NCBI RefSeq assembly: GCF_017656375.1
Contig: NZ_JACDOB010000002.1
Coordinates: 1-64,000 of the forward strand
Origin: Thermovirga sp.
GTDB taxonomy: Bacteria; Synergistota; Synergistia; Synergistales; Thermovirgaceae
Direction: 5' to 3'
Length of the DNA stretch: 64,000 bases
The notes under the pieces were generated by a model. That model was not told the origin of the DNA. It saw nothing but the letters and a program-made list of their open reading frames with translations, and did no database searches. The translations under genes and the position numbers were made by a program. This document shows, piece after piece, positions 1-64,000 of this stretch; position 1 is the first letter of the stretch, and every line of letters begins with the position of its first letter.

Positions 1-418
1 GAATCTCTGGAGGTCTGATCTCATTTATGTGCTTATGACCTATCGCGGGGAAAACGTATCTTTGAAGCCTGGAAAGAACCCTTGCTGCGTGGTTGTCGCT
101 TCTAACTCCCTCCATTTTGCGGGAATACCAATCCAAAGCTATTTCCTGGAAGGTTTCAAGTTTATTTGGAGATGCAAGAATATTTACACCTTTATCTCTT
201 GCAAGCAATATTTCGTCCCTTTTAAGCCGAGCTTCACGCAGAGAAACATCCGGGTATCTGCCCAGACTGCGTTTGATTTCCCTGCCGTTCTGCCATATTC
301 TAATTCGCCAAAGCTTTGAACCTTTTGGCGTAACCTCAAGATATAACCCTCTCCCATCACGAACGGTATAGGATTTTTCCTTGGGTTTCAAAGCCCGAAT
401 TTTCAGATCTGACAACAC
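1..418 (-). CDS. Tyrosine recombinase (P4-type integrase), N-terminal part, cut by window edge
   Basis: This is a site-specific recombinase of an integrated element. An open frame runs without stops from a GTG at 418 (or TTG at 415, behind a G-rich Shine-Dalgarno stretch) to base 1. The first ~85 residues match the arm-DNA-binding domain of P4-type integrases (DUF4102): K-S-Y-T-V-R-D-G-R-G-L-Y-L-E-V, then K-L-W-R-I-R and L-G-R-Y-P. From about residue 90 a core-binding domain begins (T-F-Q-E-I-A, later Y-V-F-P-A-I-G). The catalytic domain with R-H-R-Y residues lies outside the window and cannot be checked. The gene points away from the 3' end of tmRNA, a classic attachment site for this family, so it is probably the first gene of the element. 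Confidence 0.88.
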   Translation of the reverse strand, partial: MLSDLKIRALKPKEKSYTVRDGRGLYLEVTPKGSKLWRIRIWQNGREIKRSLGRYPDVSLREARLKRDEILLARDKGVNILASPNKLETFQEIALDWYSRKMEGVRSDNHAARVLSRLQRYVFPAIGHKHINEIRPPEI

Positions 419-432
419 TTCCCCCACCCCCA

Positions 433-481
433 CCGTACATGTTAGCACAAAAAAGGCTCACATGTACGGTTTCATGTACGG
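433..481. repeat. Three copies of a 9-mer (CATGTACGG) in front of the integrase
   Basis: CATGTACGG occurs at 461-469 and 473-481 as direct repeats with a 12-base period, and as its reverse complement CCGTACATG at 433-441. They sit between the integrase start and ssrA. Integrases with an arm-binding domain bind short repeated arm sites in attP, so these are candidate arm-type sites; an operator for the integrase gene is the alternative. The repeats are seen directly; the function is inferred. Confidence 0.5.
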
Positions 482-527
482 TCTATGTTGTGGAACCCCA
501 TGTTTTTAGGCGAACAATATTGGACAT

Positions 528-567
528 AAAAAATCGCTAAAACCTAGCTTTCAAGCGGTTTTAGCGA
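528..567 (-). terminator. Rho-independent terminator of ssrA
   Basis: A perfect 11-bp inverted repeat (arms 534-544 and 557-567) is followed on the minus strand by six Ts (528-533). It lies 40 bases past the tmRNA 3' end and before the integrase start, so it should end ssrA transcription and insulate the integrase. Confidence 0.85.
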
Positions 568-606
568 ACTTTTGAGGATTTTCTTGGAAGGCTTAAAATT
601 ATCTAT

Positions 607-631
607 TGGTGGAGGCGCGGGGAATCGAACC
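607..631. other. Putative attachment site (att) at the ssrA 3' end
   Basis: The last ~25 bases of tmRNA (T-arm and acceptor stem with encoded CCA) are the usual crossover target of P4-type integrases. An integrase gene starts about 190 bases away and is oriented outward. The matching second copy would lie beyond base 1, so the exact core cannot be defined here. Confidence 0.5.
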
Positions 632-960
632 CCGGTCCGACAGGGGCCAACCCTGTGTTTCTCCGTGCGCAGTCCCTGCTTTAATGTCGAATCAGGTTCC
701 CCAGGGACAGGGCCCCTGATCCCAAGCTTCCTTGATCTTTCCTGAATAGCCGGGAAGCGCGGCTATCAGGGCATCCGCTTTATGTGACGCCCTTTGGAAA
801 TCCAAGCGGAGAAGATTTCCAAGGACGGGCTACTTCAATTAAGCAGCCAATGCGTAATTTTCGTTGGCACTTATTGTGCGATTCCGCTTTTTAACGAGAT
901 GCGGAGAACTCGGCACGCTTCACAAGGCCCTCCATCCTGCCGTCGAAACCTATCGCCCCC
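607..960 (-). ncRNA. ssrA: Transfer-messenger RNA (tmRNA)
   Basis: This is the RNA of trans-translation, which rescues stalled ribosomes and tags nascent chains for proteolysis. The 5' end reads GGGGGCGATAGGTTTCGACG (from 960) and the 3' end has the tRNA-like TTCGATTCCCCGCGCC and an encoded CCA (607-609). The tag reading frame is visible at 868-839: A-N-E-N-Y-A-L-A-A followed by TAA. The gene is intact (about 354 nt) even though it appears to be the insertion site of a mobile element. It lies 9 bases downstream of smpB on the same strand and is probably transcribed with it or from a promoter inside smpB. Confidence 0.97.
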
Positions 961-63689: not shown

Positions 63690-64000
63690 TTAATCGTTAA
63701 ATACCGTTTGATCTTCCACCTCGGTCTGAAGAGCTTTAAGAGCCTTCATTACAAGGTGCTTGCGCAATTGCTTCTCTTCTTCAGGTGTTTTTGTTGGATC
63801 TCCTAATGGATGAGGTATAGCAACAGCAGGAACTATTCTATTGGCTCCTACCGTTAAAGAAATAGGAACTATGGTACATACATGCACTACCGGCAAGCCG
63901 GCTCTTTCAATTTCCTTTACGATCGTTGCACCGCAACGAGTACAGGTTCCTCAGGTCGAGGTCACAATCACAGCAGTTACGTTAGCATCCTTGAGCTTCT
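63690..64000 (-). CDS. grdB: Glycine/sarcosine/betaine reductase selenoprotein B, C-terminal part, with in-frame UGA (selenocysteine)
   Basis: This is the substrate-activating subunit, which forms a Schiff-base or direct intermediate and uses a selenocysteine. From the window edge (64000) the frame reads through TGA at 63953-63951 and continues to the TAA at 63692-63690. Around the UGA it reads S-T-U-G-T-C-T-R-C-G-A-T-I-V-K, followed by V-C-T-I-V-P-I-S-L-T-V-G-A-N-R and A-I-P-H-P-L-G-D-P, all GrdB/F/H family signatures. A gene caller that stops at UGA would report only a 68-residue fragment starting at 63896. The substrate (glycine, sarcosine or betaine) cannot be told from this part. Confidence 0.92.
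63924..63938 (-). promoter_or_regulatory. Bacterial SECIS-like hairpin for UGA decoding
   Basis: In the minus-strand mRNA, CGUUGC and GCAACG form a perfect 6-bp stem with a GGU loop. It starts 12 bases after the UGA, the position used by bacterial SECIS elements bound by SelB. Confidence 0.8.

Follow-up and report, generated by a model that had tools for sequence, protein, structure and literature searches.

The window analysed here makes up the first 64 kb of contig C2 (163 kb) in a Thermovirga genome (phylum Synergistota) of 1.8 Mb and 85 contigs, and its base 1 is also base 1 of the contig. Close to this end lies a complete ssrA (tmRNA) gene, found by both ARAGORN and Rfam, the Rfam model being covered over its whole length (positions 1-374 of 374, 207 bits). 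The gene is followed on the same strand by a partial integrase gene that is oriented away from ssrA, with a short control region between the two. The preliminary description of this DNA had reported a P4-type integrase just beyond an ssrA gene with an intact 3′ end, and both observations were borne out. tmRNA genes are well known as favoured targets of genomic islands, and the arrangement that marks a tRNA- or tmRNA-integrated island, an intact target gene beside an integrase, is present at this ssrA. The features of the region are listed in Table 1.

Table 1. Features at the left end of the window.
Feature	Position	Strand	Basis or remarks
P4-type tyrosine integrase, first 139 codons, gene cut by the contig end	1..418	-	domains, alignment
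10-nt repeat copy 3, inverted, just before the integrase start; probable arm-type site	432..441	+	
10-nt repeat copy 2, same orientation as copy 1 and 12 bp from it; probable arm-type site	461..470	-	
10-nt repeat copy 1, ACCGTACATG on the minus strand; probable integrase arm-type site	473..482	-	
Hairpin followed by a T-run, on the element side; probable ssrA terminator	528..573	-	-19.5 kcal/mol, z -3.45
Predicted attL core, 14 nt at the 3′ end of ssrA and about 6 nt beyond	601..620	-	analogy with three sister elements, whose end repeats measure 20-21 bp
ssrA (tmRNA), intact; probable integration target	607..960	-	tag ANENYALAA; ARAGORN, Rfam

The frame at 448-2 of the minus strand is the N-terminal part of a P4-type tyrosine integrase. 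It matches, above the cut-off in both cases, the arm-binding domain PF13356 (7.2e-20) and the central domain PF22022 (1e-11), the latter over positions 1-49 of 96, the rest being cut off by the contig end. Alignment with six longer relatives, to which the encoded 139 codons are 41-46% identical, places the start at the GTG at 418-416, 188 nt past the 3′ end of ssrA; from there to the contig end (418-2) the frame is free of stops. The assembly thus breaks off inside the integrase gene, and the window edge is not the left border of the element that the preliminary description had taken it for. A profile search of the whole genome found PF13356 only in this gene. The catalytic domain PF00589, whose place in the gene would be beyond the contig end, has only two matches in the genome. 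They are on contigs C3 and C13, in genes of 299 and 316 aa that, from their length, are presumably Xer-like.

The N-terminus of the integrase has matches in 107 of 185 genomes of the phylum. We compared 29 phylum loci (L049-L077, the window excluded), which are among the matches listed, far more being present in the phylum. In 28 of these 29 listed loci the match is preceded on the same strand by a tRNA or tmRNA gene, at a distance of 156-280 nt (median 182) from the end of that gene; L060 alone has no such gene upstream. The 188-nt gap in the window falls within this range. The RNA gene is ssrA at six of the 28 listed loci, at two of the six by Rfam only. Relatives were also found in 18 named genomes (best segment 57%) and, at 34%, in a single viral contig, while the phage (272) and plasmid (499) records that match the integrase all do so at less than 60% identity.

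The region between ssrA and the integrase contains two kinds of signal, a hairpin with a T-run and a set of short repeats. The hairpin was not listed by a simple terminator pattern scan. In 20 of the 28 sister loci the 95 nt that follow the RNA gene fold better than 95 or more of 100 shuffled versions, and in the other eight they do not. The direct repeat pair and its inverted third copy are probably the arm-type sites of the integrase, as judged from their arrangement and from its recurrence among relatives. When direct 8-nt pairs with at least seven of eight positions matching were sought beyond nt 70, pairs spaced by 12 bp were found in 25 of the 28 sister segments (among L049-L077), and each other spacing from 8 to 40 bp in at most eight; in 200 letter shuffles the 12-bp pair occurred in 0.82 segments on average and in four of the 28 at the maximum. 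An inverted copy accompanies the pair in 22 of the 28. As these sisters are related, some of them almost identical, and were selected for being the best matches, the counts do not represent independent events. Among 19 other loci, of which 18 belong to the named genomes, all from other groups, and one to a viral contig with only 30 nt searchable, eight have the 12-bp pair (other spacings, at most three; shuffles, 0.47), and none of five ssrA flanks that have no adjacent integrase has it within the first 190 nt. The sequence of the repeat motif varies from element to element, and the spacing of 12 bp is constant.

Taken over the phylum, this pattern suggests a rule to which we give even odds: P4-type integrases would share a fixed geometry of two direct sites plus an inverted one, with element-specific site sequences, co-evolution of the arm-binding domain and self-repression, and the window would add a Thermovirga member that uses ssrA. 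A literature search for the 12-bp arm geometry surfaced only a general review, which is weak evidence on whether it has been described before.

The outer limit of the element can be predicted by analogy. Eight stretches with sister integrases were searched for end repeats, which were found in three, delimiting elements of 38.8 kb (21 bp), 26.8 kb (20 bp) and 48.7 kb (20 bp). The three resemble the window in their integrase, which is related to the window's (41-45% identical where the two can be compared), and in its similar distance to the RNA gene; they differ from it in their targets, tRNA-Ser in two cases and tRNA-Arg in the other, and in that both end repeats are present. The other five stretches (G116, G115, G086, G119 and G183), all ssrA sites, had no end repeats; three of them are shorter than 15 kb, and two measure 37 and 40 kb. 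Another scan, covering ten stretches that did not exceed 20 kb, found no end repeats either, and in the stretches searched both ends were obtained for none of the phylum's ssrA elements. With repeats of this length as a guide, the border of the window element is predicted at about 601-620, in place of the window edge.

Within this predicted core, the nearest genome in our set diverges from the window. This genome (G005) belongs to the same genus; it has a second replicon of 31,872 bases, which over its first 8,000 bases agrees 100% with plasmid CP003097 of Thermovirga lienii DSM 17291, and the window genome is accordingly regarded as a second species of the genus. Homology between T. lienii and the window starts at position 604 of the window, 3 nt past the 3′ end of ssrA, and the integrase N-terminus has no match in the whole T. 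lienii genome, including the flank of its ssrA. The comparison with a relative that lacks the insert, as proposed in the preliminary description, thus gave the expected picture, the relative being a different species rather than a strain of the same one.

T. lienii also indicates what may lie across the contig break. Its genes further downstream of ssrA (L036:1-8000) are colinear at 78-81% identity with the right end of contig C1 of the window genome, which carries a symporter gene. On the basis of this synteny, the gap to the left of C2 is probably the one that follows the right end of C1. In T. lienii the corresponding interval measures about 6.8 kb; when it was sought in the window genome by DNA search, the only matches were on C67, to a relative of one of its genes, and on C69, to a piece of a transposase. 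C67 was considered as the right border of the element and rejected: the gene that resembles the congener's ssrA-adjacent gene adjoins a tRNA-Arg there, and an ssrA fragment was not seen. C1 itself runs on for 616 bases past the T. lienii match, and the sequence in which it ends is related to congener repeats. This end (L140:9150-9766) has 19 matches in T. lienii and three in the window genome, one of which is itself.

The rest of the element was sought throughout the assembly. The preliminary description had proposed looking for a second copy of the ssrA 3′ end (attR); in the whole genome, the terminal 24 nt with up to three mismatches and the last 14 nt with up to one each occur once, in ssrA itself. 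The missing second copy does not refute an insertion, because the contig ends inside the integrase. In the 28 readable of 44 stretches (145,185 bases), tblastn with 25 sister integrases gave no continuation of the gene, only a distant match to the C13 gene. The same stretches contained no convincing att copy and no overlap with the first 200 bases of the window. An att-like match of 18 nt with three mismatches on C13 lies inside that contig and was taken as chance. On reading, the 24 readable small contigs carry mostly ordinary chromosomal genes, and none could be tied to the gap.

A fragment at the very end of a contig, with no continuation found, could also be a chimera of assembly or binning, a few hundred foreign bases having been joined to the ssrA contig end. 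We consider this very improbable: the junction falls at the 3′ end of ssrA, 28 other loci share its spacing and 25 its repeats, and the composition of the fragment matches that of the host (G+C, 43.2% vs 42.6%, with no shift).

A search of ten family genomes with its N-terminus gave two matches, the window genome and G003, and no integrase was found downstream of ssrA in the stretches of G002 or of the congener; the contigs of G009 and G004 end close to or at ssrA and are uninformative on its presence. Integrase relics were observed downstream of ssrA in two other family members (L041, and L078 with L040). The G003 integrase is broken and lies about 8.4 kb downstream of ssrA, a distance obtained by joining contigs via a 127-base overlap. 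Between the two are an IS3-like transposase, a Fic-like gene and an HsdS-like fragment, all named by reading. In G008 only the C-terminal half of an integrase is left (PF00589, 3.7e-25), about 0.75 kb from ssrA. The ssrA flank thus seems to be a repeatedly used insertion slot in the family, and decay of the integrase at this site is common, since two members carry only relics near ssrA.

The window fragment might likewise be a relic, that is, the integrase end and attL of an old insertion whose remainder was lost by deletion or insertion-sequence activity. The state of the G003 and G008 loci, the sequence resembling congener repeats on the facing C1 end and the failure to find the catalytic domain and attR in the assembly all speak for decay. 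Against this, the 139 codons are open, and the start, the hairpin and the repeat geometry are intact. In addition, the repeat pair is missing from the relic loci of G003 and G008, both in the vicinity of ssrA and ahead of the relic: none was found upstream of the G003 relic, and a longer G008 stretch gave one chance-like pair, at nt 731. The break coincides with the contig end, and nothing therefore shows that the gene is truly cut. A relic is accordingly possible but unlikely.

The reading that we prefer, with a probability of roughly 80%, takes the stretch from base 1 to about base 620 as the attL end of an ordinary chromosomal element integrated at ssrA in Thermovirga. The P4-type integrase would have recombined the attP of the element with the last 14-20 nt or so of ssrA, and the element would have supplied its own copy of the ssrA end, leaving ssrA whole. 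It would also have carried in the hairpin terminator and the integrase gene, and would continue beyond the contig end. The integrase promoter region is predicted to overlap the putative arm-type sites, in which case the enzyme probably represses its own synthesis, as reported for IntS of KplE1. Counting against the attL reading are the failure to find attR and the catalytic domain in the assembly, the absence of a composition shift, the two family members with mere integrase relics near ssrA, the lack of end repeats in five of eight sister stretches and in the ten shorter ones, and the hairpin, which is not universal among the sisters.

Similar arrangements have been described elsewhere. In the Islander set (PMC4383910), enrichment among the target genes is stronger for tmRNA than for tRNA of any isoacceptor type. 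As in the window, these islands have an intact target gene followed by a tyrosine integrase; they differ in the displaced gene fragment (attR), which was not found here, where the contig ends. For IntS of the KplE1 prophage, PMC2951348 reports an integrase promoter that overlaps attL, with arm-type sites between the tRNA end and the integrase. The layout beside ssrA in the window looks alike, with promoter and binding predicted from the DNA, in a different host phylum and at a different target gene. Dehalococcoides islands, according to PMC3146451, also integrate at the 3′ end of ssrA, with a 20-bp repeat and a variable region downstream of the gene, but use a serine recombinase (a CcrB homologue) in place of the P4-type tyrosine integrase of the window.

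The finding is real yet common in kind. Taken alone, the window locus marks the probable entry point of a mobile element in one genome, and an integrase beside an RNA gene indicates the place of insertion, not the content. The type of integrase does not predict the cargo, because related integrases carry BREX, metal-ATPase/ThiF and prophage elements: the 26.8-kb element encodes BrxA, BrxB, BrxC, BrxL, PglX and PglZ (BREX) along with a Toprim/AAA protein, the 38.8-kb element P-type ATPases (metal ATPases) and a ThiF protein, and the 48.7-kb element is a prophage with terminase, portal, capsid and tail proteins. In fragmented assemblies, the repeat geometry common to these loci might be of use for finding the ends of such elements. 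The BREX island (L145-L146, in G030) has its 20-bp end repeats at tRNA-Ser and its own P4-type integrase. Finally, near the far end of the window, Rfam SECIS_4 matches positions 63913-63950 with 54.8 bits.
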